Shown here in pieces: positions 15,994 through 55,593 of a stretch of DNA of 64,000 nucleotides. A program made the translations under genes and the position numbers. The stretch is from positions 1 to 64,000 of the forward strand of contig JADLDB010000060.1 in NCBI GenBank assembly GCA_020846875.1, given 5' to 3'. The stretch comes from Myxococcales bacterium. Its GTDB lineage: Bacteria > Myxococcota > Myxococcia > Myxococcales > Myxococcaceae. The notes under the pieces are model-generated. The model was not told where the DNA came from, did no database searches, and was given only the letters and a program-made list of their open reading frames with translations. Each line of letters begins with the position of its first letter. Position 1 is the first letter of the stretch.

Positions 15994-17767
<1,774 letters not shown>

Positions 17768-23716: not shown

Positions 23717-24219
23717 AGCGGCAGCTCCCTCACGAGCGACTCCATCTCGAATTCGCCGCCCCACTCGCCCAGGTGGTCGGTCAGAAAGCCTTCTAGGGCC
23801 TTCTCGGTCTCACCGCCGAAACGCTTCGCTACCCACCCCGCACGGGAGCGAAGGTCGACGAAGTAGGCGGCGGATAGGGATTCACTGAACGGTGCCGCCT
23901 CTTCTGTCGCCATGTAGCGAAGGCCATCGGCTGCCGGGAGACGGTCGACCAGGCCTCGACCAACAAGCAGTTGGAGGCCTTGCTCCACCAGAGCCCGACG
24001 AACGACGTACTCGCCTGAGCGGTGGGGGGTTGCTGGATGAAGACTCGGCGGCCCGCCCGTCACATCTCCTGAGTGAACCATCAGGTAGTCGAATGCGAGC
24101 ATCTGTTGGAGCGAGAACGCCGACGGGTGTGCCGCCACCAAGAACTGAAGCGACCTGACGGCACTTTCCAGCGGTGTAGAGAAGACACGTGCCCGTGGGG
24201 CGAGCTCGAGCTCACTCAT
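23713..24219 (-). CDS. ABC-3C system middle component
   Basis: A 168-residue helical protein between the effector and the ATPase. It has the features of ABC-3C middle components, winged-helix-like adaptors: LQQMLAFDYLMVHSGDVTGG, then LHPATPHRSGEYVVRRALVE and GLQLLVGRGLVDRL. ABC-3C middle components link the ATPase to the effector. It overlaps both neighbours by ATGA, showing the three genes act as one unit. I use ATG 24219, which forms the overlap; a GTG 12 bases earlier is possible. Confidence 0.8.
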   Translation of the reverse strand: MSELELAPRARVFSTPLESAVRSLQFLVAAHPSAFSLQQMLAFDYLMVHSGDVTGGPPSLHPATPHRSGEYVVRRALVEQGLQLLVGRGLVDRLPAADGLRYMATEEAAPFSESLSAAYFVDLRSRAGWVAKRFGGETEKALEGFLTDHLGEWGGEFEMESLVRELPL

Positions 24220-25349: not shown

Positions 25350-25488
25350 GAACGAAGCGGACTCCGGAATCGGAGGGAGCAGCTACCGGAGCCGCAAGGA
25401 CGGAGGCGCTCTCCTCGCTTTCGAGCGTCAGGGACCTCTTCCGCCGGCAACCGAAACGCTGGCCGCTGACCCGCACCAGCCGGATTCC

Positions 25489-27474: not shown

Positions 27475-30400
27475 TCGGACTCCGTCTCAAACGAGGCTGC
27501 GGTGAACTTTAGGGTGTTGGCGTTCTCGGTGACTCGGCGAAGGAGGTCTTCCTTCACGCCGCCTTCGACGTGGACCCGAATCTCAAGGGTCACCTCGGTC
27601 TTCGCTCCGGGAATCGTCGACAGGTGCTGGATGACCTCCTCGGCGACTCGGCCAGCGTCTCGACCGATGCGCATCGGGTCGAGCTTCACGCTGCCGATGA
27701 AGAGGTTGGGCGGTGGCTTGGCCGCCGGAGTTGCAGAACCTGGGGCCTTCCCCGGCGATGCTGAGCCCGGCTTCGAGACGGCCTGACTGCCGAGCGCCGG
27801 TGTTCCAGGAGCCCCAGCAGCCTTCTCAATCTCCTGCTGGCGCTTGGCGACTGCCGGCTTCACGACCAGCGTCGCCTTCTCGATGACCGGAGCCGTTCCA
27901 GCTCCGAACTTCAGGCCCACGTAGCGCTTCTTGGTGTCGTCCCAGTTCGCAGCGATGGCGAACGTCTCGTCGACGAGGATGTTGCTTGCTCCGTCGATGA
28001 CGGCTCGGTGCAGCGCCTCTCGGTTCTTGAGCCTCGGCAGGTACAGGTACCGGGTGAACCACTCGGCGAGCTGCCCCACCGACACGTGGTCCTTGTCGGT
28101 CCAGAGGTAGCGGTCGAGCTCCATGCGGAGCCGCACGCCGCCCATCTCGGGCATGAGCAGCTCCTCGCTCTTCAGTTTGGCCCCAGTCCGCTTTGCCAGG
28201 CCGTCGTTGCCGCTGACCTTGAGCTCCTCCCAGCGCACCTCGGCAGTGGCGTTGGGCTGGGTCGGCACCAGGACATGAATCCACGAGGCGCCGATTCGAA
28301 GGTCGACCGTGTGGTTCATCTCGTCGGTCTTCGTCTTGGCCTGGTTCTCCTGGAACTTGTCGAGGTTGAGGCGCTCTCGCTCGTCGTAGATGGACTTCCA
28401 CGCCAGGTACTGAGCCGAGGCGTCGGTGAGCGCTTCGAGTTCCTTCTTGTCGGGTGCCAAGAAGACGAGGCTGTTGCGCTCCAGCCGAGGACCGTTCCCC
28501 TTGCTGGCGAGGAACTCCTTGGCTGCGGACAGACCCGGACTGTCCGTTTGTCCCTTTCGGTGGACGTGCTTGGGCGACAGGATGACGAGCCGGGCTTCGG
28601 GCTCATCGGGAATGTCTGATGACGTCTCGGGGCAGGAGTGGACGGCCGAGAAGAACTCGCCCCTCTGCTTCTGCTCAAGCAGCAGCCGCCGGCCGATTTC
28701 GGCGAAGAGCGTCTCGGGCTCCTTGCTGAGCGCACTCGCCCGGTCGTCGGCCATGCGATTCAGGTTCGCCTTGGTCGACAGCCAGTAGCGGTTGCCGTCC
28801 TGGTGGATGAACTTCGCCTTGTCGCTCACCCGCCGCAGGGCATCGCCGAACACCGCCGCCGTCTCACCAGGCTGCACGCAGCCGAGGCGCACCTTCCGGT
28901 CATCGATGCCGGGGTTCTTGTTGTTCGCTCCGGGCGCCGTCCCCAGGTACAGCGTGCGAGTCACACGCCGACAGGCAGAGACTCGGCCGAGGTTTGGCGT
29001 GCTCCGGTCAATCTCCATCGGCAGCGAGTTCTCGCCGTCGACGTCCTGGGAAATGATCGGCTCCCAGACGTCGGGCAGATAGCGAGTGAGCTCCGACTTC
29101 ACTTGGCCGTCGTCCATCGGGATGAAGGCCGGGAGAATCATCAGGCTGCTGTCGCCGCTCTCCCAGAGGCGGTGAATCACCTTCGCCAGGAGGCGCAGCA
29201 CGCCACGGGTGCGCTGGAACTTGTCGAGCGTGGACCAGTCGTCATAGAGCCGGCGAAAGAGCTCAGGGTGAATCGGGTAGGCCGCTTCGAGTTCCCGCTT
29301 GTAGGCCTCTTCGCCGCAGCCATTTGGGAAGTCGTTGGGCGCCTCCCGGTACATCTTGGCGAACGAGGAGACGACTGCGTCTCGGTGAGCGAAGGCGTCC
29401 TTGTCGGTGAGCGGCTGGAAGAGCCGCCGTCGGACAATCTCAAAGCCCTCATCGCTGCTCGCAGGCCGCCAGGCCTTCGACTTGCGCTGCAGGACGTCCT
29501 TCAGCGTGTCGAGGGCCGCCTGGCCGTTGTCGCCGCCAATCTCGATCTTCGAAGCCGGAATCGAGGCGACAACCAGCGTCTTGTCGACAGCGTGAGCAGC
29601 CTCGGTGAGCGCCTGGGCAAAGGTCGTCTGCGCCTCGAAGTCACCTGAGGGCAGGTCCCGCTTGCCGACGACCTGTCGGGCGTAGGCGACCCACTCATCC
29701 ACGAGCACGAGGCAGGGGCTGAACTTCTTGAAGAGCTGACCGAGCAGTGCCGCACCGGGGCTCACGCCCTTGGTGTCGGAGTCGGCGACGAGGGCGTAGC
29801 CCTCCTTGCCGCCGAGCTGCCACGCCATCTCGCCCCACATCGTGTGGACCTTGGTGCCGTCGGGCTTCTTCTGCACCTGAGCAGGCGACAGGTCCGTACC
29901 GACGAGGACGGCCACCTTCGCCTTCGGCAGCGAAGTGACTCCCGCTTCCTTCATCAGCGGCTCGATGCCGGCGAGCTTCCCGGCTGGCGTGCCTCCGAAG
30001 AGGTGGAAGAGCGCCAACATCGAGTGCGTCTTGCCGCCGCCGAAGTTCGTCTGGAGCTCGACGATGGGGTCGCCGCCCTTGCCCGTCATCCGATGAAGAG
30101 CGCCCTCCAAAAGGTCCTTGAGTCCGGCGGTGATGAAGGTCCGCCGGAAGAACTCGGCGGCGTCTCGGTACTCGTCGCTCCCCTCGCCACGGTGAACCTG
30201 CGCCAGGTCGGCAGCGAACTCCGCCTGCATGTAGCGGCCAGAGGCGACGTCGGGGTGCGGCGTGACGACGTCTCGCCAGGGCTTCAGCCCGGCCTTGGGC
30301 ATGCCCTCCAGAGTGAGCTGGTAGCGGGTCTTGTTCCGAGCCTGCTCGGAGAAGATGACTCGCTGGAGGTCGACACGGAGCTTCGAGACCTCTTCGGCCT

Positions 30401-30773
30401 GCTCGGCGGCGCTGACGGCGTCGAGCAGCCGCTTCATCGTGTCGAGGGCCCGGTCGGTGTCATCGTTCGAGAAGGGCTCCTCGTGCGCCCAGCGGTTGCG
30501 GACCTCTCGGAGCTCGCCCACATAGGCACGTTCGACGTGCCCCAGCACGTGGCTGAAGACCTCCTGCCAACTGTCGCCGATGGCCTTGAGGAGCGCCTGG
30601 CTGTCCCAGGGGACCGTTCCGCCCTTGCCCTTCTTGAGCTTGAGCCGATCGGCAACCTGCTCGACCCAGTAGGCGCCCAGACGAGCCTTGAACTCCCGCT
30701 CGGCGAACGGCGACAGCCCGGCACGGAGTTGCTCCAGTCCCTTGTCGATTCGCTCTCTGTTGCTGAGCGCCAT
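27471..30773 (-). CDS. DUF499 ATPase with N-terminal Swt1-like HEPN domain (Hma-type system)
   Basis: An 1100-residue ATPase of the DUF499 family. Residues 1-130 form a Swt1-like HEPN domain with R-x4-H (R92 to H97 in EVRNRWAHEEPF), a pattern of RNA-cutting HEPN domains. The P-loop is NFGGGKTHSMLALF around residue 245; Walker B is CLVLVDEWVAYARQ. The C-terminus contains a Pro/Ala linker and a final DNA-binding-like domain (VTLEIRVHVEGGVKEDLLRR). DUF499 proteins travel with DUF1156 methylases and SNF2 helicases in Hma-like defence clusters. It starts in a one-base overlap (TGATG) with the methylase and ends in ATGA with the next gene. Confidence 0.85.
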   Translation of the reverse strand: MALSNRERIDKGLEQLRAGLSPFAEREFKARLGAYWVEQVADRLKLKKGKGGTVPWDSQALLKAIGDSWQEVFSHVLGHVERAYVGELREVRNRWAHEEPFSNDDTDRALDTMKRLLDAVSAAEQAEEVSKLRVDLQRVIFSEQARNKTRYQLTLEGMPKAGLKPWRDVVTPHPDVASGRYMQAEFAADLAQVHRGEGSDEYRDAAEFFRRTFITAGLKDLLEGALHRMTGKGGDPIVELQTNFGGGKTHSMLALFHLFGGTPAGKLAGIEPLMKEAGVTSLPKAKVAVLVGTDLSPAQVQKKPDGTKVHTMWGEMAWQLGGKEGYALVADSDTKGVSPGAALLGQLFKKFSPCLVLVDEWVAYARQVVGKRDLPSGDFEAQTTFAQALTEAAHAVDKTLVVASIPASKIEIGGDNGQAALDTLKDVLQRKSKAWRPASSDEGFEIVRRRLFQPLTDKDAFAHRDAVVSSFAKMYREAPNDFPNGCGEEAYKRELEAAYPIHPELFRRLYDDWSTLDKFQRTRGVLRLLAKVIHRLWESGDSSLMILPAFIPMDDGQVKSELTRYLPDVWEPIISQDVDGENSLPMEIDRSTPNLGRVSACRRVTRTLYLGTAPGANNKNPGIDDRKVRLGCVQPGETAAVFGDALRRVSDKAKFIHQDGNRYWLSTKANLNRMADDRASALSKEPETLFAEIGRRLLLEQKQRGEFFSAVHSCPETSSDIPDEPEARLVILSPKHVHRKGQTDSPGLSAAKEFLASKGNGPRLERNSLVFLAPDKKELEALTDASAQYLAWKSIYDERERLNLDKFQENQAKTKTDEMNHTVDLRIGASWIHVLVPTQPNATAEVRWEELKVSGNDGLAKRTGAKLKSEELLMPEMGGVRLRMELDRYLWTDKDHVSVGQLAEWFTRYLYLPRLKNREALHRAVIDGASNILVDETFAIAANWDDTKKRYVGLKFGAGTAPVIEKATLVVKPAVAKRQQEIEKAAGAPGTPALGSQAVSKPGSASPGKAPGSATPAAKPPPNLFIGSVKLDPMRIGRDAGRVAEEVIQHLSTIPGAKTEVTLEIRVHVEGGVKEDLLRRVTENANTLKFTAASFETESE

Positions 30774-33700
30774 CAGACGACCCCTCTCTTCGACTTGGCT
30801 CGACGAGGCTTGGGCGGCGCAGCATCTGCCAGCGTGAGGTCGAGCTGACCCGTTTGTCTGATCTCAACCACCGAACTCGACGCTGCCAAGCGCTCAAGCT
30901 CTGGCCAGGCGGTCACAAGCCCGTTGAAAGCCCTCGCATCCTCGACCCATCCCCTCCGTTCGCAAACGCTGAAGAGTCGGTACGCCAGCTCCCGGGAACG
31001 CTGGGCCATTTGGCCAAGTCGGGCTACCAGGACCGAGGCGTCGGTCTCTCCACCGACCTCAAGCCGGCGAAGAAGATGGAGGGCCGATTCCCACAGAGTC
31101 AGGTCATCGTCGGTCTGGGGATCCCAGGTCGAGGAAAGCTCGCTCGGCTTGAGGAGCCGAAACTTCCCAGCGGACGAGTGTCCGACCCCCGCCGAAACGA
31201 CCCGAGCCACAGAGACATTCTTGGCGGTAGCCAGAGTCTCAGCAACTCCGTACTTCTCTGTATTCCATCCATACGACTCAAACCACGTGAGGGCGAATCG
31301 GGTAACGGCGTCGGCCTCACCCTCTTCTTTGCTCAGGTACTCATCGAGCACTTCGTTGATCAGCTGAAGCGCCGACCGGACCGTCATGCTCGAACCATCG
31401 GCCTCAAGGACCTTGCTGTGCTGCGAGAAGATCGCCATGCCCGGACCAATGGCCGCCTGAGCAACGTCGACGGGCGCAATGTGTCGTTGCTGAAGGGCCC
31501 GGAGAGCGCTCGGCAGCTCCGCCCGCAGCAGCCTCCGGAATTCTGCCCTAGTGGTGATGCCTGCATCCTCTGGCCGGCGCCTGCACGCCAGAACGATGCT
31601 GGACGCAAGAGCGTTAGCATCCGCAGCATTCTGCCGGTTGTCACCCTCGGTCCTCAGCGGCCAGGTGCCAGTGATCTTGAAGCCACCACGCACCACGCCT
31701 TCGAGAAACTTCTCCCACCCAGTCGATGCAGCTCCGCCGTCCTCCTCGGTCTCGGCCTGCTTGAATGCGTAGTAGATCGTTGCTGGGTAGTCGGACGGGC
31801 AGCTATTCGCCAGATTGGAGATCGCCTGCGTCACTCCGTCCTCGAAGAACTGCTCCGCCGCTTGCCTGTCCCCGTGTCGGGCTGCGTTTGCGATGAGCTC
31901 GCTGGCCTTGGGAACAAGCACGGTTCCCAGTTCGGCAGGAAAGACGTCCTTCAGCGTCCGGCGTAGCCACACATAGAAGAAATCAGACAGTTCGGCGTAG
32001 CTGATGTTGTCGTAATACGGCGGGTCCGTGGAGGAAATGACCGGCTGGGCAAAGCGCAGCGAGCGAGCGTCGGCTTGGCTGATGCTTGCGCCAACTGTGG
32101 GGACCACCGGGATTGCGGGGCCTTCAAGGCAATTGGCGACGACGTGTACCGCCTCCTCCCAACCGGAACTTGAGTCCCCGAAGGGATTGCCTTCTGCGAA
32201 ATCCCAAGTCATGGCGAAAGCCTGACGGGGGAGCGACGAGCGCATCGCATTGTCCTTCGGACGCCAAGTCGCCAAGGTTGAGCCGTAGTCGACCGTTCGT
32301 GACAGCGCCGCTGCCAGGTACACAGAGACTGCCTCTGCATACGCCTGCGCTCCGACCCCACCGCTGGGCAGGCGGGCATGATCGTCGGGCATGCCAGCTC
32401 GCACAGCGTCCGTGCGGATCTTCTCACGGACTGCTGTGATCGAATCCGAAAGCGTTGTGAGCGCCAGGATCTGCCGGCCGAGAAAGAGGTCGCCCCAGCG
32501 TTGCAGTCCGTATGCCGAGCACACGCCTCCCGTGATCATCGCCCTTGATGGCACCGAGCCGCTCAAGAAGCTCTCCCGGGCATCTCCCACCAACTCCCGG
32601 GCATCGGCCTCGGCCTGCATCGACTCGGCGACCGAATCAGCGGGCAAGTAGACCCTGCCAGGCCCGACAACTGAGCTCGCCACGACCGCAATCAGGCGCT
32701 TGCCGAGACGCCCATTCTTGCCTTCCTGTCGAATGTACTCTCGCTCGATGGGCGCCTTGCTCATGAGGCAGTAGAAGTCCTGTGCCTTGCCCGCCCTTGT
32801 TCCGGTGTTGACCAGCGAAGGATCTGGCGGAGCTCCAAAGTGCAGTGACAACTCCCACGTGCGGCTGCCCTCATTCACCTCTGGTCTGAGCCAGACCTCC
32901 TTGCCGCTCTTGGTGCTCAGCCAAAACGTCGACAGCAGGGGGACGTGGACTCCACCCATCGCCGGATTGGGACTCGCTACCGTGCGAGCCCAGAGCCATG
33001 CGGCGACTCTGAGCGCCTTGCCCTCTTGGCGTTTGAGGCTCGGGTGCAAAGACGCCAACTCTGGCGTCACCACGATGTCGGGAAAGTACTTCCCGATCTG
33101 GCGCCGAGTTTCTTCGAGCACCCAAGAGCCGTAGTTCCGAACATCGCAGGCGAGTCCTTGGCTTCCAGTCCAGGGCCGCAGGGCCCGCTCCTCAGGATTG
33201 AGGCTGACAGGAGCAGTCCGAGCAAACCGAGCCGGCAAACCGACTAGCGCTTGATTGATAACGAATGCGATCGGATTCAGGTCGCTCGCCAGAACTCGAA
33301 GGCCGAGTCGCTGCGCTTCAAGGGGTATGGTGCCACCACCAGCAAACGGGTCGGTGAGCGGTGGCAGTTGAGTGGCGAGGTACTCGTTCACAGCATCCGG
33401 CGTAGACGTCGTGAGAACCGCTTGCGCCTGCTGTGTGTTCGCTCTCCGAGCGTGGCTAAGGGCCACCTCGGCCCGTACTCTGGTGATGACTTCAGGGTCG
33501 TTTCCGTGCTCCCACGAGATGTAGCGGGCTAGCAGGTCAAAGAGCCTCTGACGTTCTGCTTCCTGTGACTCTGGAGTACTGAACCTCGAATCACCCACAG
33601 GGTCGTCAACCAATTGGGCGAAGAGAACAGCCCGTGCAGCGGCAACTGGTCGCTGCGCCCACCAACCGTGAATTTGTGTGGGATATCCCTTGGGTGCCTT

Positions 33701-33778
33701 CCGCTTGCGCTTTGCTCCCTCGGCATTGATCGCATCAAGCGGTAGTGCGACTTCGATGAGCTTGGCGTGCTCATTCAT
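30773..33778 (-). CDS. DUF1156 adenine-specific DNA methylase (Hma-type system)
   Basis: A 1001-residue methyltransferase. The family signature is at the N-terminus (IEVALPLDAINAEGAKRKRK, then QIHGWWAQRPVAAARAVLFA). SAM motif I is DPFAGGGTIPLEAQRLGL at residues 143-160. Catalytic motif IV is STDPPYYDNISYAEL near residue 585. It probably methylates adenine in DNA to mark self. It overlaps the helicase stop (ATGA) and the DUF499 start (TGATG). Base composition is a little less GC-extreme than the helicase, hinting at a patchwork origin. It lacks a specificity subunit in this window, so targeting must come from partners. Confidence 0.87.
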   Translation of the reverse strand: MNEHAKLIEVALPLDAINAEGAKRKRKAPKGYPTQIHGWWAQRPVAAARAVLFAQLVDDPVGDSRFSTPESQEAERQRLFDLLARYISWEHGNDPEVITRVRAEVALSHARRANTQQAQAVLTTSTPDAVNEYLATQLPPLTDPFAGGGTIPLEAQRLGLRVLASDLNPIAFVINQALVGLPARFARTAPVSLNPEERALRPWTGSQGLACDVRNYGSWVLEETRRQIGKYFPDIVVTPELASLHPSLKRQEGKALRVAAWLWARTVASPNPAMGGVHVPLLSTFWLSTKSGKEVWLRPEVNEGSRTWELSLHFGAPPDPSLVNTGTRAGKAQDFYCLMSKAPIEREYIRQEGKNGRLGKRLIAVVASSVVGPGRVYLPADSVAESMQAEADARELVGDARESFLSGSVPSRAMITGGVCSAYGLQRWGDLFLGRQILALTTLSDSITAVREKIRTDAVRAGMPDDHARLPSGGVGAQAYAEAVSVYLAAALSRTVDYGSTLATWRPKDNAMRSSLPRQAFAMTWDFAEGNPFGDSSSGWEEAVHVVANCLEGPAIPVVPTVGASISQADARSLRFAQPVISSTDPPYYDNISYAELSDFFYVWLRRTLKDVFPAELGTVLVPKASELIANAARHGDRQAAEQFFEDGVTQAISNLANSCPSDYPATIYYAFKQAETEEDGGAASTGWEKFLEGVVRGGFKITGTWPLRTEGDNRQNAADANALASSIVLACRRRPEDAGITTRAEFRRLLRAELPSALRALQQRHIAPVDVAQAAIGPGMAIFSQHSKVLEADGSSMTVRSALQLINEVLDEYLSKEEGEADAVTRFALTWFESYGWNTEKYGVAETLATAKNVSVARVVSAGVGHSSAGKFRLLKPSELSSTWDPQTDDDLTLWESALHLLRRLEVGGETDASVLVARLGQMAQRSRELAYRLFSVCERRGWVEDARAFNGLVTAWPELERLAASSSVVEIRQTGQLDLTLADAAPPKPRRAKSKRGVV

Positions 33779-36700
33779 CGAGGAACGCCTCCGCTCTTCA
33801 CCACGGCATCGAGTTGAAACGTCGAGTGAGTCTGGGCGAAGCCGGGCTGACCCCAGTCGAAGTCGGTCACGTAGGTGGGCTCCTGAGCTGCGCCGTCTTT
33901 GATGAGCACGACGGCCAGCCTGAATCGGTCGGGCACGTTCAGCGCCCGAAGAATCTCGTTCTTCGTGAGGCTCACTGTGTCGGCGCCGTCCGTGCGGCCC
34001 TTCACCTCGATGAAGTAGAGGTCGCCGGTCTTCGGGTCCTTGGACTCGACGTCGTAGCCGAGCTTCTGAGCGCCCACGTCCCTGGGCTGCCGGCCGAGCT
34101 TCGTCTCGGCGGCGAGCACTGCTTCGACAGCCAGCCGCTCGACGACTGTGCGTTGCTCCGGGTCTGCAGTCAGCGACCAGTCGCTCTGCGCCTCGGGGAC
34201 CAACTGCTTCAGCAGTCCAAAGGGAACCACGAGAGCGCCTCCGACCACCTTGGGCGGCTGCGGCGAGATGCTGCGCTCGTCCTGGAGCGAACGTTGACGT
34301 GACTGAAGTCGGTCTGAGAGTCGGTTCGCCCGGTCCTCGGCCTGATGAGACGAGAGCCGGGTCTGCTTGCCGGCGGCTTCCTGCGCTCGCAGGTCCTGCG
34401 CACGCCGGTCCCAGTGGTTGATTTCCTTCAGCAGTCGGACCTTCACCTGCTCCTCGACCTTGTCGATGAGCGGCAGCCGGTGCCGGCGGACTTCGTCGAC
34501 GTGCTTGGGGACGAGTTCACGCAGGGCGAAGCCCATCACCTTGTGCTCCCAGTCCTCCTTGAGCCAGCTCGCCTCCAAGACCGACTTGAGCGCTGGGAGT
34601 TCCGTCTCGGTGGCCCCTCGGTAGTCCAGGTAGGGCGCCATGCCGGCGTCCCCGTAGGCGCCATCGGCGGCTACTTCGACGAACTGGAGGCGTTGCGAGA
34701 CGACCTGGAACTGGCCGTTCTTCAGCTTGCGCCCGTCCTGGACTGCATGCTCCAGGTAGAAGAGCAGCCGAGGCGTCGTGCCGAGGTCGTGCTCGTCGAT
34801 GAGCACTGCCCCCTTCTTCAACAGGCCCCGGTGCTGCTCCAGAACGAGGTCGATGGTCGTGTCGAGGAGCGGGTTCCCTGGGCACACGAGCATCGCCCTC
34901 GGCTGGTCGTCGATGTACTGCTTGTCGAAGCAGACCCGCTCGTACTGGCGCAGCACTGGGGCGCCGGTGCCGATGAGCCGGTCTCGATCACGCAGCGCCT
35001 GCGGCACATGGCTCACCTGCCAGCGGCCCGGCTCTCGTCGATGCGCCTTGCCGCCCAGCCGTTCGAACGCCGCTGAGAAGAAGCTCTGGATGAAGTGCGG
35101 CTGGAGGCGCTTCGCCCTGGAGCGCTCCATCTCGGCTCGAATCGCATCAATGTGCGAGAGGTCCATCGTGTCTTGGACCAGCGCTCGGCGCTGAATCAAC
35201 TCTTCGAGGTGCTTCCGGTCTACGGCGTTCGCCACCTGACGCCGGATGCTCGCCTTCCGCTCGGGATCGTCTCCGTAGAGAATCGCCTCCACGAGCAGCT
35301 CCCGGAGCGGGCGCTCCTCGAACAGCAACCCGAGAACGTCGAACACCTTCCCGCCGAGTGCCTTTCGCTCGTCTTCGAGCTTGTCGAGGAGCTGCACGTA
35401 GACGTCGGCCTCTCGGGTGTCCTTCGCCACGAGGTTCCAGAGGTGGCAGACCTCCTTCTGGCCAATGCGGTGGATGCGGCCGAAGCGCTGCTCCAGGCGG
35501 TTCGGGTTCCACGGCAAGTCGTAGTTCACCATCAGGTGCGACCGCTGAAGGTTCACACCCTCGCCGGCTGCGTCGTTCGCCAGGAGAACGAGCACGTTGG
35601 GCTCGTTCATGAACGAGTGGACCACCGTGCGCCGCTCTTCACGGGCAACCCCACCGTGAATCTCGACGACAGCGTCGGGCTTTCCGAGCCGAGAGCGGAT
35701 TCGGTCGGCGAGGTACGTCAGCGTGTCTCGGAACTCGGTGAAGATGACGAGCTTCCGCCGGTTGCCGTGCTCGTCGACCATCAGCGGGTCATCGAGGATG
35801 GACTTGAGCTGAGCCCACTTGGCGTCCTGGCCGGAGTGCCGCACGGCCTTCGCCAGCGTCTCCAGTTCCTTCAGCCGGGCGATTTCGGTTTCGAGTTCGG
35901 CGATGGTCTGAGCCGCCGTGGCGTTGTCGACGAGTTGCTGCTCGACTTCCTCACGCTCCTCCTGCGGCGCTTCCTCGTCGAGTTCGTCCCATTCTTCCTC
36001 GGAGACGTTCGGCCCCGTCGACTTCAGGTCCTGGGCAGCCTTCCCGCCACGAAGCTGAATCTTCTCGTCACGGATGCGGCTTTCGAGCCGCTCACGGCGG
36101 CGTTCAATCGAGCGGAGAATCGACTCCGGCGAGGAGGCGAGGCGACGCTGCAGCGTCATCAAGGCGAAGCCGACGTTGATGCGGCGCTGCTGCTCCTTGT
36201 CAGCGAAGCGCTCGGCTCGGTTCATCTCCGAGCGCACGTAGTCGGTGACCTCGGCGTACAGCGACTCCTCTTCCTTCGAGAGCTGGTACGTGACGGTGTG
36301 GGAACGCCGCTCGGGGAAGAGCTTGCGGCCGTCGAAGGTGTAGAGGTCCTCCTTGATGAGCCGGCGCATCAGGTCGGACGGGTCAGCGGAGTGGACCCCT
36401 TCCCTGAAGCGGCCTTCGAAGCGGTCACCATCGAGCAGCGCCATGAAGAGCTGAAAGTCGTCTTCCTTCCCGCTGTGCGGCGTCGCCGTCATCAGAAGCA
36501 GGTTCCGGCAGCGCTCGCCGAGCGTCTGGCCCAGGCGATAGCGCTTGGTGAACTTCACTTCGCCGCCCAGGTAGTGGGCGCTCATGCGGTGGGCCTCGTC
36601 GCAGACGATGAGGTCCCACTCGGGGGCGTTCTTGAGCCGTTCCTGCACGTCCTCGTTACGTGAGAGCTGGTCCAGCCGGGCGATGAGCAGGTTCTTCTGC

Positions 36701-37344
36701 TCGAACGGGTTCGCCGTCCGGGTCGCCTCAATCATGTCCCGAGTCAGCAGCTCGAAGTCGAGGTCGAACTTCTCGTGGAGCTCGTCCTGCCACTGCTCGG
36801 TGAGGCTGCCCGGCGAGATGATGAGGCAGCGCTGAAGGTCGCCACGGATGATGAGCTCCTTGATGAGGAGCCCGGCCATGATGGTCTTGCCGGCGCCGGG
36901 GTCGTCGGCGAGCAGGAACCGCATCGGCTGCCGGGGCAGCATCTCCTCGTAGACGGCGCTGATTTGGTGCGGCAGCGGGTCGATGGAGGAGGTCGTGATG
37001 GCGACATAGGGGTCGAACAGCCAGGCGAGACGAATGCGGTAGGCCTCGGAGACGAGCCGGAGCAGGTTGCCGTCGGCGTCGAACGACCACGGGCGGGTCT
37101 TCTCTTCGAGCTGGAGGCGGGCTTCGTCGTCCCGGTAGAGAATCGCCTGGTGTGCGGCGCCGGCCTCGTCGAGGTAGAGGACCTGAATGCACTGGTCGCC
37201 GTGCCAGTCGACGCTCTTGATGGTGGCGATGCCGTGGGGGGCGAGCCCCTTCAGCCGAGCGCCAGCTTGGACGTCTTCAAGGCGAGCCACGGTCGGCCTC
37301 CGGGTTCCGAGCCGCCGAATGGGCGACGGCTGAGGGCTCGTCAC
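33775..37344 (-). CDS. SNF2/DEAD-type helicase with C-terminal DUF3883 domain (Hma-type system)
   Basis: An 1189-residue superfamily 2 helicase. Walker A is DDPGAGKT at 147-154, DEAH at 249-252, motif III LLMTATPHSG, motif V AGEGVNLQRSH and motif VI FGRIHRIGQ. A long coiled coil (EEDELDEEAPQEEREEVEQQ type) interrupts the core. The C-terminal DUF3883 domain contains GYDVESKDPKTGDLYFIEVK, a PD-(D/E)XK-like E-V-K, which suggests a nuclease or DNA-binding module. It is the first gene of the operon and would drive DNA translocation or unwinding in an Hma- or DISARM-like mechanism. The start is taken at the first Met; the next in-frame start is further inside. Confidence 0.87.
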   Translation of the reverse strand: MTSPQPSPIRRLGTRRPTVARLEDVQAGARLKGLAPHGIATIKSVDWHGDQCIQVLYLDEAGAAHQAILYRDDEARLQLEEKTRPWSFDADGNLLRLVSEAYRIRLAWLFDPYVAITTSSIDPLPHQISAVYEEMLPRQPMRFLLADDPGAGKTIMAGLLIKELIIRGDLQRCLIISPGSLTEQWQDELHEKFDLDFELLTRDMIEATRTANPFEQKNLLIARLDQLSRNEDVQERLKNAPEWDLIVCDEAHRMSAHYLGGEVKFTKRYRLGQTLGERCRNLLLMTATPHSGKEDDFQLFMALLDGDRFEGRFREGVHSADPSDLMRRLIKEDLYTFDGRKLFPERRSHTVTYQLSKEEESLYAEVTDYVRSEMNRAERFADKEQQRRINVGFALMTLQRRLASSPESILRSIERRRERLESRIRDEKIQLRGGKAAQDLKSTGPNVSEEEWDELDEEAPQEEREEVEQQLVDNATAAQTIAELETEIARLKELETLAKAVRHSGQDAKWAQLKSILDDPLMVDEHGNRRKLVIFTEFRDTLTYLADRIRSRLGKPDAVVEIHGGVAREERRTVVHSFMNEPNVLVLLANDAAGEGVNLQRSHLMVNYDLPWNPNRLEQRFGRIHRIGQKEVCHLWNLVAKDTREADVYVQLLDKLEDERKALGGKVFDVLGLLFEERPLRELLVEAILYGDDPERKASIRRQVANAVDRKHLEELIQRRALVQDTMDLSHIDAIRAEMERSRAKRLQPHFIQSFFSAAFERLGGKAHRREPGRWQVSHVPQALRDRDRLIGTGAPVLRQYERVCFDKQYIDDQPRAMLVCPGNPLLDTTIDLVLEQHRGLLKKGAVLIDEHDLGTTPRLLFYLEHAVQDGRKLKNGQFQVVSQRLQFVEVAADGAYGDAGMAPYLDYRGATETELPALKSVLEASWLKEDWEHKVMGFALRELVPKHVDEVRRHRLPLIDKVEEQVKVRLLKEINHWDRRAQDLRAQEAAGKQTRLSSHQAEDRANRLSDRLQSRQRSLQDERSISPQPPKVVGGALVVPFGLLKQLVPEAQSDWSLTADPEQRTVVERLAVEAVLAAETKLGRQPRDVGAQKLGYDVESKDPKTGDLYFIEVKGRTDGADTVSLTKNEILRALNVPDRFRLAVVLIKDGAAQEPTYVTDFDWGQPGFAQTHSTFQLDAVVKSGGVPR

Positions 37345-38221: not shown

Positions 38222-38334
38222 GCGCCGGCCTCTCGGGATAAGAGCGTGGCAGGGCAACTTGCCGGCGCTCGACCATTCCCGGTCGGCGTCTTCTGGTCGC
38301 TGGGCGCAGCTTGCCCCGACCGAGGGCACGGCCC

Positions 38335-39210
38335 ATGTCGTTCAACATCCTGAAGTCCGCCCTCCCCACGAAGGGCGACCACCTCGGCGACGTCATCTGG
38401 TGGCAGCTCGCCGACGCCGAAGTCAGCCGCACCCGGCTCGAAACGCTGTGGCTGGGGGCCGGGCTGGACAAGTCGCTCCTCCCCGAGGCGCCCACCGCCG
38501 AGAAGGCGTTGAAGACCGCCATTCGGGAGACCCAGGTCGGCCACCTGGAGCACCTGCTTCGCCTCGGCAAGGAGGACTCCAACGAGGTCGTCTTCGCCGT
38601 CGTCCATGAGGCCCACGAGGCAGATGGGTCGCTCAGCTACACGCAGGAGGCCCGCATCAAGCTGGACCGGCTCCACGAGCAGCTCATCGTCGACAACCCG
38701 AGCCACGAGCTCGTGTCCGCTGTCCGGGTGGCCTTCGAGCGCTTGCGCCTCAACCACACCAGCGACGATGTTCGGCGCAGTGTCGTGCGGAGCCTGCGCT
38801 CGTTCTCGGCGGTGGCCCTCCGGGAGTCCGGCGGCATTTACTGGGTGCCTCGGACCTACTCGCCGAAGCTGCGCCAGTTGCAGCAGGCCATCGAGACCAT
38901 CGGCAGCTCGAAGGTGTACCTGCTCCCGATTCACGACAGCTCCGATGCCAGCCGCACGCTGGGAGAAGTCGCCCAGGCGTCCGTCGTCCAGGAGCTCGAC
39001 GCCCTGAAGTTCGAGGTCGAGGGCTTCCTGCAGAGTCCCCCTGACCGGCCGTCGACCCTCGTGCGCCGGCTGGAGGCGTTCGAGTCGCTGAAGACGAAGG
39101 CCGCCCTCTACCGGGACATCCTGCGTGTTCAGGTCGCCGACCTCGATGAGCAGCTCGCCCGGCTGACGGGATCCGTCGAGCAGCTCCTCGACACCAAGTT
39201 CGCTGCGTAG
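38335..39210 (+). CDS. DUF6744-family protein of MoxR-VWA operon
   Basis: A 291-residue protein of the DUF6744 type, which is found next to MoxR ATPase and VWA genes. It begins MSFNILKSALPTKGDHLGDV and has conserved GGIYWVPRTYSPKL and KVYLLPIHDSSDASRTLGEV. The last 60 residues form a coiled coil (VADLDEQLARLTGSVEQLL). Its job is unknown. The ATG is preceded by GAGGG and it leads the operon with MoxR and VWA genes, so it is probably the client or effector that the MoxR-VWA machine remodels (inference). Confidence 0.7.
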   Translation: MSFNILKSALPTKGDHLGDVIWWQLADAEVSRTRLETLWLGAGLDKSLLPEAPTAEKALKTAIRETQVGHLEHLLRLGKEDSNEVVFAVVHEAHEADGSLSYTQEARIKLDRLHEQLIVDNPSHELVSAVRVAFERLRLNHTSDDVRRSVVRSLRSFSAVALRESGGIYWVPRTYSPKLRQLQQAIETIGSSKVYLLPIHDSSDASRTLGEVAQASVVQELDALKFEVEGFLQSPPDRPSTLVRRLEAFESLKTKAALYRDILRVQVADLDEQLARLTGSVEQLLDTKFAA

Positions 39211-39247
39211 TCGGCGTCGCTTCCTCTGCATCGCCCCAACCGGTCGC

Positions 39248-39271
39248 TGTCCGGTTGTCCGCTTGTCCGGT
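39248..39271 (+). repeat. Three tandem 8-bp repeats upstream of MoxR gene
   Basis: TGTCCGGT-TGTCCGCT-TGTCCGGT, three units of TGTCCGNT at an exact 8-base period. They lie 23 bases before the MoxR ATG. The same octamers occur at 55309-55332 in another intergenic region, so they are likely sites for one DNA-binding protein. Confidence 0.55.
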
Positions 39272-39293
39272 TCACCCCCTTCCCGGAGTTCCC

Positions 39294-40436
39294 ATGAACA
39301 AGACCCTTCAGAAGCTCAGGACCGAGCTGCACTCCCTCTTCCCCGAGCGGCGGCTCGTCATCGACGGCGCTCTCTGCGCAGTGCTGGCTCGGGAGCACGT
39401 GCTGCTCCTCGGGCCTCCCGGCACCGCCAAGAGCGCCCTGGTCCGGGCCATCGCCCAGGCCCTCGACGCCAGCTACTTCGAGCGGCTGCTTACGAAGTTC
39501 AGCACGCCCGAGGAGCTGTTCGGCCCCATCTCGCTCCAGGCGCTGGAGCAGGACCAGTTCATCCGAGTCACCACGGGCATGCTGCCCGAGGCCCAGTTGG
39601 CCTTCGTCGATGAGGTCTTCAAGGCCAACAGCGCCATCCTCAACTCGATGCTCACCCTCATCAACGAGCGCACCTTCAGCAACGGTGGCTCGCCGGTGCC
39701 GGTGCCGCTCATCTCGCTGTTCGGCGCCAGCAACGAGCTGCCGGAGAGCCGGGAGCTGGAGGCGTTGTTCGACCGGTTCCTCCTGCGCTTCGAGGTGAAC
39801 TACCTCCTCCGCCCGGGGAACCTGCGGGCAGTCCTCTCGGCGCCGGAGCCAGTCGCCAAGGTGTCCCTGCCGCTCCAGGAGCTGCAGGCGGCGCAGGCCG
39901 AGGTCGACTCGGTGAAGGTGACGGACGACACCGTCGATGCGCTCATCTCGATTCGAGAGGGGCTGAAGACGGAGGGCATCGTCGCCTCGGACCGGCGCTG
40001 GAAGAAGTCGCTTCGGGTTGTTCAGGCGGCGGCCTACCTCGGGGGCGAGTCCGAGACGTCGCCTGAGGACCTCGCCATCCTGACGGACTCCCTGTGGCGG
40101 GAGCCCAAGGAGCGCCCGAAGGTGGCCCGCACGGTGGGGAAGCTGGCCGACCCCATCAGCTCCCAGGCCATCGAGATTCTCGATGCGGCCCGAGAGACGG
40201 CGGGCAAGGTGCAGGCGCTCAAGACGAGCGACAGGAAGGCGTACCTGGCCCAGGCTGCCCAGGCCCTCGAAGAGTTCCGGGCGCAGCAGGCGAAGCTGGG
40301 CGAGCTGGGGAAGTCCGCCGGCAAGCGGGCCCAGGCGTCCATCAGCGATGCCATCGCCGAGGTGAACGGGCTCCATGCGGAGCTCGCTCGCTCGGTGTCC
40401 ACCGGCCTCGGGCTGGGCATGAGGGCGCTGCGGTGA
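39294..40436 (+). CDS. MoxR-family AAA+ ATPase
   Basis: A 380-residue AAA+ ATPase of the MoxR/RavA type. Walker A is GPPGTAKS at residues 40-47, Walker B AFVDEVFK, with sensor SLFGASNELPESRELEALFD and FDRFLLRFEVNYLL. The C-terminal helical part (QAAQALEEFRAQQAKLGELG) is a coiled coil. MoxR ATPases act as chaperones with VWA partners. The ATG has GGAG five bases upstream, and the stop overlaps the VWA GTG (GTGA). It lies in the DUF6744-MoxR-VWA operon. I take the start at 39294 rather than the open 13-codon extension. Confidence 0.85.
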   Translation: MNKTLQKLRTELHSLFPERRLVIDGALCAVLAREHVLLLGPPGTAKSALVRAIAQALDASYFERLLTKFSTPEELFGPISLQALEQDQFIRVTTGMLPEAQLAFVDEVFKANSAILNSMLTLINERTFSNGGSPVPVPLISLFGASNELPESRELEALFDRFLLRFEVNYLLRPGNLRAVLSAPEPVAKVSLPLQELQAAQAEVDSVKVTDDTVDALISIREGLKTEGIVASDRRWKKSLRVVQAAAYLGGESETSPEDLAILTDSLWREPKERPKVARTVGKLADPISSQAIEILDAARETAGKVQALKTSDRKAYLAQAAQALEEFRAQQAKLGELGKSAGKRAQASISDAIAEVNGLHAELARSVSTGLGLGMRALR

Positions 40437-41704
40437 AGCGGCTCATCTACGACGTGCCTCGCTGGCACTGCTTCCTGCACCGGGAGGCTCGGGGACTCGA
40501 TGCGGCGCAGCCGTGGGACTCGCCCGGGCTGAAGCTGGCCGACGAGCTGTTCGACCGGCTCTACGCCGGGGAGCCCGAGGGCGGTGAGGTCGAAGGCCAG
40601 GTCGACCTCCACCAGCGGTGGGCGCAGGAGTTCCACCGCAACATCGAGCAGCTCCCGTCGTTCCAGCGGTTGGCGACCGAGTGTCAGAACGACGCCATCG
40701 CCGCTGCCTCTGCGGTCGAGGCCCTGACGAAGGCGCTCAAGCCGACTCCTCCCGAGCCGAACTCCGCTCCCTCGACTGCGCCTCGGCGAGGGCTGGCCAC
40801 TGCGTGCCAGCGGGCTTCCAAGGCTGTCGAGGAGGTGCGGGAGGCGCTTGAGGGCCTGGGCGAGGTGGCCTTCGGCAGGGCGGCAGGGTTCGGCAGCGAG
40901 GGGGCTCGCCCCTCGGAGGGGAGCCGCTCTCGGCCCCTCGCCACTCGGCTGAAGAGTGACAACCGGCTGCTCCGAATCGCTCTCTTGGCCGGGCGGTTCA
41001 AGCGCATCGCTGCCGCCAAACAGCGCCAGAAGGTGAAGCACGGCGCCGAGGAAATCACCGACGTCGAACTCGGAGGTGCGCTGGCTCGGCTCCTCCCCGT
41101 CGAGCTGGCCAAGCTGCGTCGGCCGAGGTTCCGGCTGGCGTTGCTCAGGGACCTCGTCGAGCGCCGGGCCATGCAGTACCAGCTCTCCGGCGCTGAGACG
41201 CTGGGTAAGGGCCCCCTCGTCGTCTGTCTGGACAAGAGCGGCTCGATGGACGGACCTCCCGACATCTGGGCGACGGCGGTGGCGCTCGCTCTCCTGGACA
41301 TCGCCAAGCGGCAACGGCGTCCGTTTGCGCTGCTCGGCTTCGACGGGGGCGTGAAGTTCGAGGCCCTCGTGCAGCCCCATGAGCCGCTCCCCGAGGAGGG
41401 GCTCTTCGTGTCGTGCAGCGGGGGGACGAGCATCGCCAACGTGCTCTCCACCGGGCTGTCGCTGATTCGCCGCCACCCTGGGGCGCTGAAGAAGGCTGAC
41501 GTGGTGCTCATCACCGACGGGGAGAGCGACACGGCTCCAGCGGCCGAGCTCCGGGCGGTGGCCAGCGAGCTGGGCGTCACGGTGCTGGGGTTCGGCATCG
41601 GCGCCGATGCTCGGGCGCTGGAGCCCTGGTGCGACGAGGTCCAGACGGTCACCAACTTGTCGGCCATGGATGACGCCACCGCCGAGAAGCTGTTCACGGT
41701 TTGA
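40433..41704 (+). CDS. VWA-domain protein, partner of MoxR
   Basis: A 423-residue protein with a von Willebrand A domain in its C-terminal half. The MIDAS motif is DKSGSM at residues 267-272, followed by VSCSGGTSIANVLSTGL (the Thr of the second MIDAS loop) and DVVLITDGESDTAPAAEL. The N-terminal half is helical (SFQRLATECQNDAIAAASAV). It resembles ViaA of the RavA-ViaA pair. GTG 40433 overlaps the MoxR stop, so MoxR and VWA are co-translated. It binds a metal at MIDAS and probably presents a target to the ATPase. Confidence 0.85.
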   Translation: MKRLIYDVPRWHCFLHREARGLDAAQPWDSPGLKLADELFDRLYAGEPEGGEVEGQVDLHQRWAQEFHRNIEQLPSFQRLATECQNDAIAAASAVEALTKALKPTPPEPNSAPSTAPRRGLATACQRASKAVEEVREALEGLGEVAFGRAAGFGSEGARPSEGSRSRPLATRLKSDNRLLRIALLAGRFKRIAAAKQRQKVKHGAEEITDVELGGALARLLPVELAKLRRPRFRLALLRDLVERRAMQYQLSGAETLGKGPLVVCLDKSGSMDGPPDIWATAVALALLDIAKRQRRPFALLGFDGGVKFEALVQPHEPLPEEGLFVSCSGGTSIANVLSTGLSLIRRHPGALKKADVVLITDGESDTAPAAELRAVASELGVTVLGFGIGADARALEPWCDEVQTVTNLSAMDDATAEKLFTV

Positions 41705-43148: not shown

Positions 43149-43487
43149 GGTTGCCTGGGGGCGGGAGGCCCGCCGTTCCTACTGCTCTTCGCCGCATGTC
43201 ACGAGCATCAACTGCACGGCCCTCGGCCGCTCGACTCGGCCGCCGGGCGGAAGCGCTTCGAACCAGCCCAGAAGAAGACCTGGGACCAGAGAAGAAGCGA
43301 CTGGAGTGAGAACCTCGTTCTTCTCCTTCAGCGTCTCGACGTTGAAGAAGAACAAGTAGAGGGAGGGGAAGAACGGGACGACGCCCGAGCCGCCCACGGC
43401 GAAGGGCGGAGGCCTATCACCACTGCGTGGCGTGGCGTGCACATTTAAACCTCGCAACCAGTGGTAATTCCTCAGGATGGGCCTCAG
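43149..43487. other. Intergenic region upstream of HEPN operon
   Basis: This roughly 340-base stretch has no convincing gene. A 92-codon minus-strand frame (43179-43457) is open but has no ribosome site and no family features, so I leave it out. An AT-richer patch (ACATTTAAAC) lies at 43441-43450, next to the iteron-like repeats. The HEPN promoter should be here. Confidence 0.4.
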
Positions 43488-43545
43488 ACCAGGGGAAAGC
43501 GTTCCCCGTACCAGGGGAAAGCGATGCGGGAACCAGGGGAAAGCG
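43488..43545. repeat. Three direct repeats at exactly 22-bp spacing (iteron-like)
   Basis: ACCAGGGGAAAGCG occurs identically at 43488, 43510 and 43532, a 22-base period (two helical turns). It lies 9 bases beyond the stop codon of 43554-45077, next to a short AT-rich stretch (43441-43475). Direct repeats at two-turn spacing are the hallmark of iterons bound by plasmid Rep proteins, or of operator arrays. The first copy continues into GGGGAA-AGCG-TTCCCC, a small inverted repeat. Confidence 0.65.
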
Positions 43546-45244: not shown

Positions 45245-45262
45245 GTGAAAGATTGCTTTCAC
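45245..45262. promoter_or_regulatory. Operator-like palindrome 1 upstream of annealing-protein operon
   Basis: GTGAAAGATTGCTTTCAC, 7-bp perfect arms (GTGAAAG/CTTTCAC) with a 4-base spacer. It shares GTGAAA...TTTCAC and total length (18) with a second copy at 45322. Between divergent genes 45077 and 45446. Confidence 0.6.
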
Positions 45263-45321
45263 CCTGCGGGCCGAAGTTCCGGAAAGACCCGTAGCACGAG
45301 CACTTTCGAGGGGTGTTCAGG

Positions 45322-45339
45322 GTGAAAGGCAGTTTTCAC
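45322..45339. promoter_or_regulatory. Operator-like palindrome 2 upstream of annealing-protein operon
   Basis: GTGAAAGGCAGTTTTCAC: the arms extend to GGGTGAAA/TTTCACCC. It is 77 bases from palindrome 1 (first base to first base) and has the same 18-base frame. Two sites between divergent promoters suggest a repressor dimer pair that may loop DNA. The controlling regulator is unknown. Confidence 0.6.
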
Positions 45340-48297: not shown

Positions 48298-48591
48298 TCA
48301 ACGGGGCCGACGAGTTCCCGTCTTGGCCTTGGTGCTCGGCCTACCGGGGCGGCGCACAGCTGGTCGGGCAGGCTTGAAGAGCGCTCCTGGATCACACCCG
48401 AGCACGTTGGACAGCCGCACCAGGGTGCTGACGGAGACGTCCTTCCGGGCCTGCTCGATAAACCTGAAGAACCTGATGTCGAACCCGGCCCGCTCGGAGA
48501 GCTGCTCCTGAGTGAGCCCGAGCCGTTCCCTGCGTCGTCGCACGTTGGCGGCGATGAAGTCGAGGAAGGGCTGTTCCGGCGGGCCGGCCAT
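48298..48591 (-). CDS. XRE-family helix-turn-helix regulator
   Basis: A cro/cI-type DNA-binding protein of 97 residues. The HTH is NVRRRRERLGLTQEQLSERA followed by FRFIEQARKDVSVSTLVRLS. The tail is basic (RRPGRPSTKAKTGTRRPR). I use ATG 48591; an upstream start at 48642 would add 17 residues. It diverges from the lipoprotein gene at 48680 and may repress both. It could also regulate the operators at 45245 and 45322, but no link is shown. Confidence 0.75.
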   Translation of the reverse strand: MAGPPEQPFLDFIAANVRRRRERLGLTQEQLSERAGFDIRFFRFIEQARKDVSVSTLVRLSNVLGCDPGALFKPARPAVRRPGRPSTKAKTGTRRPR

Positions 48592-48679
48592 TCGGCCATC
48601 GGTACCGCCGCAGTGGGGCCACAAACAGGTGGCGCTCGCCACCAGAACTGTAAATCATCCGAACCGAAGGAGGGTCGTC

Positions 48680-53176: not shown

Positions 53177-55081
53177 TCACGCTCCACCGTCCCCGTCCGG
53201 GGCCGCCGGCCCGGGAATCAGGTACTGGCCCTTGCCGGTTCTCACGCCGCCGGCTTGCTGGAGGTGGCGACGAGCGGTGCGTTCGCAGATGACCTCGCCG
53301 GTCTGCTCCTTGTAGGCGTTCACCACGTCGGCGGTGTGGACTTCTCGGCCAGCGAGTCCGGCAAACCATGCGGCCCGCTGCTGCGGCGACGAGGTGCCGG
53401 TCGCCGAACTCGGGTAGCTCGTGCCCCGAATCTTGAGGAACTCCAACTTGCGATTGATGAAGGTGGTCGCCACGTCGATGTCGGAGGGCTGGGCCTCGTC
53501 GCTGTCCCGCCCTCGTGCCGATGCGGCGACGAAGCGAGCGAACGAGATGGCCATCCTGGCAGGGATGTCCGAGGCCTCGGGCATCGTGGCGAAGTCGGCC
53601 GCATTCTTCGTGTAGATGTCGTCGTGAACGGCGGCCATCACTTCACGAACTTGGGTGAGCGACACGTCGGGGTTGCGGTCACGCAGCAGCGCAACCAGCA
53701 GCCGAAGCTCTCGGACCCACGGCTGGTGGTCGAGATCTCCGGCACCACCTCGCATCGTGGCGTAGAGCCGGCGTGAAACGGACCAACTCCGGTGAACGTT
53801 CTCCGGAATCTCGACGATGCCATCGATGCGGCTGATGACCGGCCTGTTCTGCAACAAGCTCGCCTCGTGGCCCGAACCGACCGGTCCCCTGGTGACTTGA
53901 GCGCTGCGATTCAGGTCGATGAGGAGCGAGGTCGGTGTATCCCTTCGGAGGCCGCCGGCCACGCTGTCCCTGACGGTGCCGTCCTCCATGAGTTCCTGGA
54001 GCATCGGCGCCAACTTGCGGAAGGCAGCTCCCTCCCAGCCGTGAACGTCCTGCAGAATGGCGACACCGTGCGCCGCCTGGGGGAGTAGACCGGGCTGTGA
54101 GACCCAGCCGCCTTCAGTGGAACGAGAAGCCCCCACCAACCCTGCGGCACTGAACTTCGTCGCCGACAACTCGACGCACGTGACATTGAGTGCGTGGGCG
54201 ACCAGCCCGACGAGCTTCTTGCCTTGGCCGGGCGGGCCAACCACGAGACCATGAAGCCGACCTGGTGCGTGATCAACACGACCGCCTGAGAGCGCCTGCA
54301 GCACGGCGAAGTGAATCAGGTCTCGCAGCTCGGCGAACTCGTCCAACCCGACGATGTTGAGCTGCTTCACGACCTGCTCGAAGAGATGCCGGGCCGGCGC
54401 CACGCCTTCGCCCTGCAGCTTCTTGAGCAGGACCTCGGTCTTCGACCGCTCTTCGGCGGTCGCCCCGAGCAGGTCGAGCATCGAGTTGGTGGGCCGGGCC
54501 CCTGCGATGCTGACGAAGAAGCCTCGGGGGCCGACTGCCAGGCTGCGCTGTGGGGTTCTGGAATCCAGCTTGAGCGGCAGGTCGACGGGAACGCAGAGGA
54601 ACTCGATGCTCGATGCCATGCGGCGCAAGTCGTGAATGAGCTGGATGTCTGCGCCCAGAAGGTCGAGGGACCACACTGAGTCGCCGTCTCGGTCGATGAG
54701 ACGAACGCTCGTGGCTTCGACCCTCCGGAACTCGCCGGGAACATCGGGCAGGCGAAGAACCTGGGGCTCGTGAACCTCGATGACCGAGCCAGCGACCCGA
54801 AACGGGCGGAGCACGCTTTGGGCCTTCTTGAGCCCCCGGATTCGAGCTGGCGTGGCTGTTTCCCACGAGACGGGAGTCGGCAGACCGTTCTCGATGGGAA
54901 CAGCGAGATTGACGAGCTTTTCGATGTCTTCGTCCTCGGCGTGTGGCCCCAAGGCCTTGCGGAGGAAGGCGTAGACCGACCGGTGAAGGGTCCGCTCGAC
55001 GGTCTGCGGCAGCAGCTCAGCGCCGCCGTCGTGCTTGAGCTGCTCGGCCGCTGGAACGGGAACCTCTGCGTCGCTGGGCAT
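53177..55081 (-). CDS. MCM-like AAA+ protein with divergent Walker motifs
   Basis: A 634-residue AAA+ ATPase. The centre matches MCM helicases: VVGPPGQGKKLVGLVAHALN (P-loop), LSATKFSAAGLVGASRSTEG, GVAILQDVHGWEGAAFRKLA and VISRIDGIVEIPE (the S-R-F-D arginine-finger site). The C-terminus is a winged helix (YKEQTGEVICERTARRHLQQ). Two positions are odd: Thr/Ser after the P-loop Lys is replaced by Lys (GKK), and Walker B has Q-D instead of D-E, so ATPase may be altered. The start at 55081 has GGAG six bases upstream. Bacterial MCMs occur in mobile elements, where they act as replicative helicases. Confidence 0.65.
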   Translation of the reverse strand: MPSDAEVPVPAAEQLKHDGGAELLPQTVERTLHRSVYAFLRKALGPHAEDEDIEKLVNLAVPIENGLPTPVSWETATPARIRGLKKAQSVLRPFRVAGSVIEVHEPQVLRLPDVPGEFRRVEATSVRLIDRDGDSVWSLDLLGADIQLIHDLRRMASSIEFLCVPVDLPLKLDSRTPQRSLAVGPRGFFVSIAGARPTNSMLDLLGATAEERSKTEVLLKKLQGEGVAPARHLFEQVVKQLNIVGLDEFAELRDLIHFAVLQALSGGRVDHAPGRLHGLVVGPPGQGKKLVGLVAHALNVTCVELSATKFSAAGLVGASRSTEGGWVSQPGLLPQAAHGVAILQDVHGWEGAAFRKLAPMLQELMEDGTVRDSVAGGLRRDTPTSLLIDLNRSAQVTRGPVGSGHEASLLQNRPVISRIDGIVEIPENVHRSWSVSRRLYATMRGGAGDLDHQPWVRELRLLVALLRDRNPDVSLTQVREVMAAVHDDIYTKNAADFATMPEASDIPARMAISFARFVAASARGRDSDEAQPSDIDVATTFINRKLEFLKIRGTSYPSSATGTSSPQQRAAWFAGLAGREVHTADVVNAYKEQTGEVICERTARRHLQQAGGVRTGKGQYLIPGPAAPDGDGGA

Positions 55082-55300
55082 GTGCGTCTCCATGTTGGGG
55101 TTGAGACGCAAACTTCCCAGCGGGAGGGCGACCTCCTCGACACCAACTCTGCGGCGCAAAGTTGAGGCGAGGTCTGGAGGGCTCATTGGCCAGAAGCCGC
55201 CTGACGTCCCAGTCATGCTCGGTTGCGGCGCTGACGCCCGCTGCGCGGGCGTAGCGCTGGAGGCGGTCAGCTTCGGCCGGTGGGTGGTCAACCGGCATGG

Positions 55301-55332
55301 CGGACACGTGTCCGCTTGTCCGGTTGTCCGCT
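55301..55332. repeat. Palindrome plus three tandem 8-bp repeats
   Basis: CGGACACGTGTCCG at 55301-55314 is a perfect 14-bp palindrome. It runs into TGTCCGCT-TGTCCGGT-TGTCCGCT (55309-55332), an exact 8-base period, and a degenerate fourth unit (TGGCCGGG). The octamers match those at 39248-39271. Located in the 512-base divergent gap between the MCM-like gene (55081) and the PcfJ-like gene (55594). Confidence 0.6.
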
Positions 55333-55593
55333 TGGCCGGGAGGCCCCTCCCAAATTCCCGCAAGAAAAAAACGGAGCCGGGGGTCGTCGGGCTGAAATCG
55401 ACGAGGCCGGGGAGGGGGTCAACCTGCAGCTTCGTCGGGGCGCCAGGGGGGCCTCGTGTGAGCCCGAGGCTCAGTTGCCACAGAGGACCCTCCCCCTTCA
55501 GTAACCCGGTCTTTCTTAGGCCTACCGATTGGCGAGGCAGGCGAGCGGGAACCGCTCCAGTTTCTGGAGCACCGATTCGCAAGAACTTGCTGC
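55333..55593. other. Intergenic region before the PcfJ-like gene
   Basis: The whole gap is 55082-55593. Apart from the octamers it holds a purine tract (GCAAGAAAAAAACGG) at 55361-55375 and a long G-run region (GGGGAGGGGG) near 55410. I see no convincing coding frame. It should carry promoters for both flanking genes. Confidence 0.4.

Follow-up and report, generated by a model that had tools for sequence, protein, structure and literature searches.

Three identical 14-bp repeats lie at the end of a Rep-like gene in a Myxococcales genome, within a stretch of 64,000 nucleotides that we analysed at its full length (hereafter, the window) and that belongs to the 112-kb contig C60. Do they mark the replication origin of a plasmid-like element, with the neighbouring gene product as its initiator, or do they serve as an operator for a downstream operon that carries a HEPN gene? 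Both possibilities had been put forward in a sequence-only reading of the locus.

The repeats themselves were found exactly where that reading had placed them. The 14-mer ACCAGGGGAAAGCG occurs three times with a period of 22 bp and gaps of 8 bp (Table 1), and allowing for up to one mismatch revealed no further copy in the 64-kb window. The 7.06-Mb genome as a whole contains one extra exact copy, which stands alone on a different contig, and no second array. Scoring arrays by the number of identical columns across three copies (periods 17–26, maximum 12), we obtained 12/12 for the repeat site, while 7 was the best score among 200 dinucleotide shuffles of these 390 bp, none of which attained 12. 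Within the 112-kb contig it is the sole 12/12 site, followed by one period-24 repeat with 10/12. A CRISPR array, with repeats of about 23–50 bp and spacers of about 20–70 bp, was ruled out by the geometry of 14-bp repeats and 8-bp gaps.

Table 1. Coordinates of features at the repeat locus and in the surrounding element (window numbering unless marked as contig).
Feature	Position	Strand	Remarks
Iteron copy 3	43488–43501	-	Most distant from the rep stop codon; reads CGCTTTCCCCTGGT on the rep strand
Iteron copy 2	43510–43523	-	Exact 14-mer
Iteron copy 1	43532–43545	-	Begins 9 bp past the rep stop codon
Putative Rep-like initiator, 507 aa	43554–45077	-	N-terminal part helical; tandem winged helix predicted at residues 195–480; basic tail at the C-terminus
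AT-rich 30 bp, candidate DNA-unwinding element	43440–43469		60% AT; weak, only some homologous loci unusual in AT
RTTAC motif (here ATTAC in GAATTACCACTGG)	43464–43468	-	Conserved at 5/6 loci, 18–31 bp past the iterons
YAGTG motif (here CAGTG in CACGCAGTGGTGATAGG)	43421–43425	-	Conserved at 5/6 loci, about 61–65 bp past the iterons (86 in G069)
Operator-like palindromes GTGAAAGATTGCTTTCAC (45245–45262) and GTGAAAGGCAGTTTTCAC (45322–45339)	45245–45339		Between the divergent rep and rad52; sole two in the 112-kb contig
MCM-like AAA+ ORF, possible replicative helicase	53177–55582	-	Start uncertain; same element
attL, 46 bp identical to the tRNA-Met 3' end	17722–17767		Partner attR at contig 67590–67635, just beyond the window

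Next to the repeats ends an open reading frame for a protein of 507 amino acids, which has a TTG start with GAGGAGG 8 bases ahead of it. We consider the frame real because it is conserved: a homologue of almost equal length and 44% identity is encoded in another genus (genome G126). The gene had been described as unassigned, and so it stayed: the protein belongs to no Pfam, NCBIfam or PHROGs family, and neither Pfam and NCBIfam (E up to 0.1) nor PHROGs (E up to 0.01) linked it to a replication family, Rep_3 (PF01051) included. Plasmid, phage and IMG/VR collections yielded no relatives, and the family profile matched no PDB entry by sequence. Among 195 Myxococcota genomes, five homologues were detected in four further genera (G126, G069, G193a, G193b and G042). 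While the G126 protein shares 44% identity with the window protein over the alignment, the values for G069, both G193 copies and G042 are 25–27%. With the window copy included, the family has six members from five genera, two of which come from one genome (G193).

All six family loci carry tandem repeats. Three to five copies of 21–22 bp start at the stop codon of the rep-like gene or overlap it, and period, copy number and position are maintained across the family while the repeat sequence is lineage-specific. The arrays consist of three copies of GGAACGCTTTCCCCGA with period 22 in G126, four copies of the CGCTGTCCCCGTT type in G069, three copies of GGTCCGGCTAAC with period 22 in G193a and five copies with period 21 in G193b; in G042, three copies of ATCCAAACTGCCAAC with period 22 lie within the end of the coding sequence. 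When gene ends on the same contigs were ranked by the three-copy score, five family genes took ranks 1–5 of 204 (G042, at a contig end, was left out of this ranking and scored 12/12 separately). The closest pair, the window and G126, has the iteron core CGCTTTCCCC in common, which is consistent with co-evolution of initiator and site as judged from the sequences. That is, every relative with the protein has repeats of the same period in the same place, as the origin reading predicts, and we regard that reading as well supported for this very reason. The sequence-only reading had itself proposed looking for the repeats in relatives as a check, and the outcome is in its favour.

We also predicted the structure of the protein. 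Modelling of the whole protein was poor (pTM 0.35), a problem that was solved by folding the C-terminal 313 residues (195–507) alone, with AlphaFold2 and the six-sequence alignment (pLDDT 86.7, pTM 0.85); the earlier whole-length model had pointed to the same structural class despite its lower quality. With the 195–507 model as query, Foldseek listed RctB domains 2–3, RepE54–DNA and Rep–iteron/DUE complexes at the top (E 0.004–0.03, probability 0.9–1.0, with no match at E below 0.001), the numerous RepE entries being one protein that was crystallised repeatedly. VIA-align gave Z scores of 7–8.4 for initiators overall, with 7.9 for R6K pi and RctB and up to 8.4 for RepE, where about 186 residues were aligned across both winged-helix domains. 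The winged-helix look noted before is therefore backed by structure prediction, and the 507-aa protein is predicted to resemble tandem winged-helix initiators such as RepE, pi and RctB.

Beyond the iterons, the AT-rich patch noted previously is present, with 60% AT over 30 bp compared to 33% for the contig, but it is only modest, as about 2% of comparable stretches reach that level. AT content at this position stands out at three loci (window, G193a, G042), but not in G126 and G069. A DnaA box (TTATCCACA, up to one mismatch) was absent from the 3 kb that we searched around rep and its iterons in the window. Five of the six family loci share a second cis element in this region, composed of the RTTAC and YAGTG motifs (Table 1), and a related 14-mer, GGAACGGTAGTGTA, is present at three other family loci. 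These are its three occurrences in the 195 Myxococcota genomes; the reversed control was found twice, each time elsewhere. Viral contigs did not contain the pattern of the conserved element. On the other side of the gene, rad52 and PD-(D/E)XK genes are divergent from rep, and the two palindromes in between are, we infer, candidate repressor sites. A protein with HTH_3/HTH_31 domains (48298–48642) is a candidate for the corresponding repressor.

Which kind of replicon would use such an origin? The rep gene and its iterons are enclosed by a tyrosine integrase gene and flanking att repeats. The integrase (PF00589, contig 66315–67460) and an Xis-like HTH_17 protein (contig 64886–65257) are encoded near tRNA-Met (contig 67590–67664), and the enclosed element spans 49.9 kb with 64.4% GC, compared to 69.8% for the chromosome on the right. 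The rep gene of G126 likewise lies about 8 kb from an integrase gene, here beside tRNA-Asn. We also considered a circular plasmid contig, but neither C60 nor any other contig has overlapping ends, and the assembly therefore gives no hint of a free circle. The element further contains a defence cluster (21851–37344, minus strand) that was recognised with PADLOC profiles as Lamassu (LmuA/LmuB, 21851–25349) and Hma (HmaA/B/C, 27471–37344). Adjoining the defence genes, DUF6744, MoxR-type AAA and VWA genes follow each other in a ternary-system-like series (38311–41704, plus strand). Between the Xis-like and integrase genes, outside the window, a spore photoproduct lyase-like radical SAM protein is encoded (contig 65220–66281, minus strand). 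At the other end, a large serine recombinase gene (15990–17741, plus strand) terminates within the attL repeat. The DNA to its left, which includes a type I modification gene (4297–5946), is equally low in GC and suggests a second island beside the first.

Genes for replication enzymes accompany three of the homologues. In G042 and G193a, the homologue is immediately preceded by genes with Prim-Pol (PF09250) and AAA_25-type helicase domains, and in G069 the preceding gene is AAA_25 helicase-like. Such a set is expected of a self-sufficient replicon. Homologues of these sister primase and helicase genes were not found in the window element. It encodes an MCM-like AAA+ protein, which matched a PHROGs DNA helicase (6e-11) and MCM chains in the PDB (E 0.002) and for which the 195 Myxococcota genomes hold no homologue. 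This protein may play a role at the window origin. Its C-terminus is helix-turn-helix-like, in a protein of a bacterial integrative element. An MCM-like helicase is known from SCCmec, where it is named Cch (PMC7581432).

Taken together, the repeats are very probably iterons bound by the 507-aa protein, which would initiate the replication of an integrative, mobile element some 50 kb long; the plasmid-like origin first suspected from the sequence, with this protein as its initiator, is supported by the repeats in all relatives and the predicted fold of iteron initiators. After excision of the element by the tyrosine integrase at its tRNA-Met end, the initiator would use its two winged-helix domains to bind the three iterons, which are in phase. 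The initiator would then melt the adjacent AT-rich stretch and recruit or load a helicase, as in replicons of the RepE/pi type, and the circular form would replicate like a plasmid.

Three other explanations have to be weighed against this one. The HEPN gene, read along its own strand, is preceded by the repeats, which could be an operator for the downstream genes for a 92-aa protein and HEPN. HEPN homologues in three other genomes (G077, G070 and G043) lack short-period repeats nearby, however, and no HEPN match was obtained in the genomes that carry Rep and repeats. The repeats thus accompany the rep-like gene rather than HEPN, which leaves the operator reading unsupported and, in our view, highly unlikely. 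The 92-aa ORF, located between the HEPN gene and the putative origin, belongs to no family; a stretch that its region shares with G126 looks, from the sequence, more like non-coding DNA, because the reading frames fail to stay aligned. As another possibility, the protein might be a winged-helix transcription factor, with the repeats as common regulatory sites that have no part in replication. It is true that CRP/FNR and CtsR, regulators with a single winged helix, reach Z scores of 7.6–8.8 against the first such domain of the model, but they do so over about 70 residues, whereas both domains together (about 280 model residues) were matched by replication initiators only. The Prim-Pol and AAA_25 genes beside the homologues also contradict this explanation, which seems very improbable to us.

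Somewhat less remote, though still improbable, is the view that the Rep-like protein does bind the repeats but thereby controls only copy number or its own synthesis, the true origin being elsewhere in the element, or that the locus is a decayed plasmid remnant. Control roles are common among iterons, the window element lacks the primase and helicase genes of its sisters and the AT-rich zone is modest. Yet autoregulation would have to act on a rep promoter about 1.5 kb away, at the opposite end of the gene, the rep frame and the iterons are both undamaged, and conservation extends to the second cis element next to the iterons. The iteron origin remains our preferred reading, and it can be extended. 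Myxococcota integrative elements may harbour a DnaA-independent replicon family that has not been described before, in which a new winged-helix initiator acts on gene-end iterons, RTTAC...YAGTG serves as loading site for helicase or primase and most members use Prim-Pol and a RecA-like helicase, with the MCM-like protein of the window instead. In this full form we regard the proposal as speculative and rather doubtful; if it were true, the loading of an MCM-type helicase in a bacterium would fall to an iteron initiator.

Comparison with known systems reveals both likenesses and differences. RepE of F, pi of R6K, RepA of pPS10 (Rep_3-like) and RctB of Vibrio chromosome 2 are alike to the window protein in the predicted tandem winged-helix fold (residues 195–480), and their systems in binding-site arrays with a period of about two helical turns. 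Different from these, the window protein is without a Pfam match and has about 190 further residues at its N-terminus, which form a helical part; its iterons follow directly on the gene, with no DnaA box detected beside them. The IncW plasmid R388 also has repeats of 22-bp period downstream of repA in its RepA/oriV region, but they begin about 100 bp past the repA stop codon (9 bp in the window), and R388 is a plasmid while the window holds an integrated element. In a single-comparison profile alignment, R388 RepA was collinear with a weak, not significant score (E 0.15). IncQ plasmids (RSF1010) are RepA-RepB-RepC replicons, in which the initiator comes with its own primase and helicase genes. 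This can be likened to the initiator, Prim-Pol and RecA-like AAA_25 helicase of G042 and G193a, although gene order and origin position differ and the window element has no such primase and helicase set.

Integrative elements with an iteron origin and initiator of their own, as proposed here for the window, are known. In the integrative element SGI1, oriV lies downstream of repA (PMC7826253), SaPI and SCCmec carry rep-ori and cch-ori modules, with the SaPI origin downstream of rep (PMC7581432), and PLE has a repA-ori module (PMC8263062). The initiators of these elements belong to other families (IncN2/N3 RepA, the SaPI Rep helicase and RepA_N), and the hosts are Gammaproteobacteria or Firmicutes, not Myxococcota as here. 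In addition, SaPI Rep and SCCmec Cch are helicases themselves, while the 507-aa protein is without an ATPase domain. The kind of system is already known, and the putative initiator family within it is new. In the libraries searched and in the open-access literature, we found no description of this family, of its iterons at gene ends in Myxococcota or of the second cis element.

Plasmids of Myxococcota are almost unknown, with two plasmid-bearing organisms counted in a 2024 paper (PMC11705834). A family of intact iteron–Rep modules, carried by elements that are integrated at tRNA genes and rich in defence genes, would be evidence that plasmid-type replication exists in this phylum in integrated form, and it would provide a new initiator family that none of the profile libraries tested recognises. 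The origin may be of use for myxobacterial shuttle vectors. Finally, iterons that keep place and period while they differ in sequence would make the family a natural set for studying the co-evolution of initiators and their sites.
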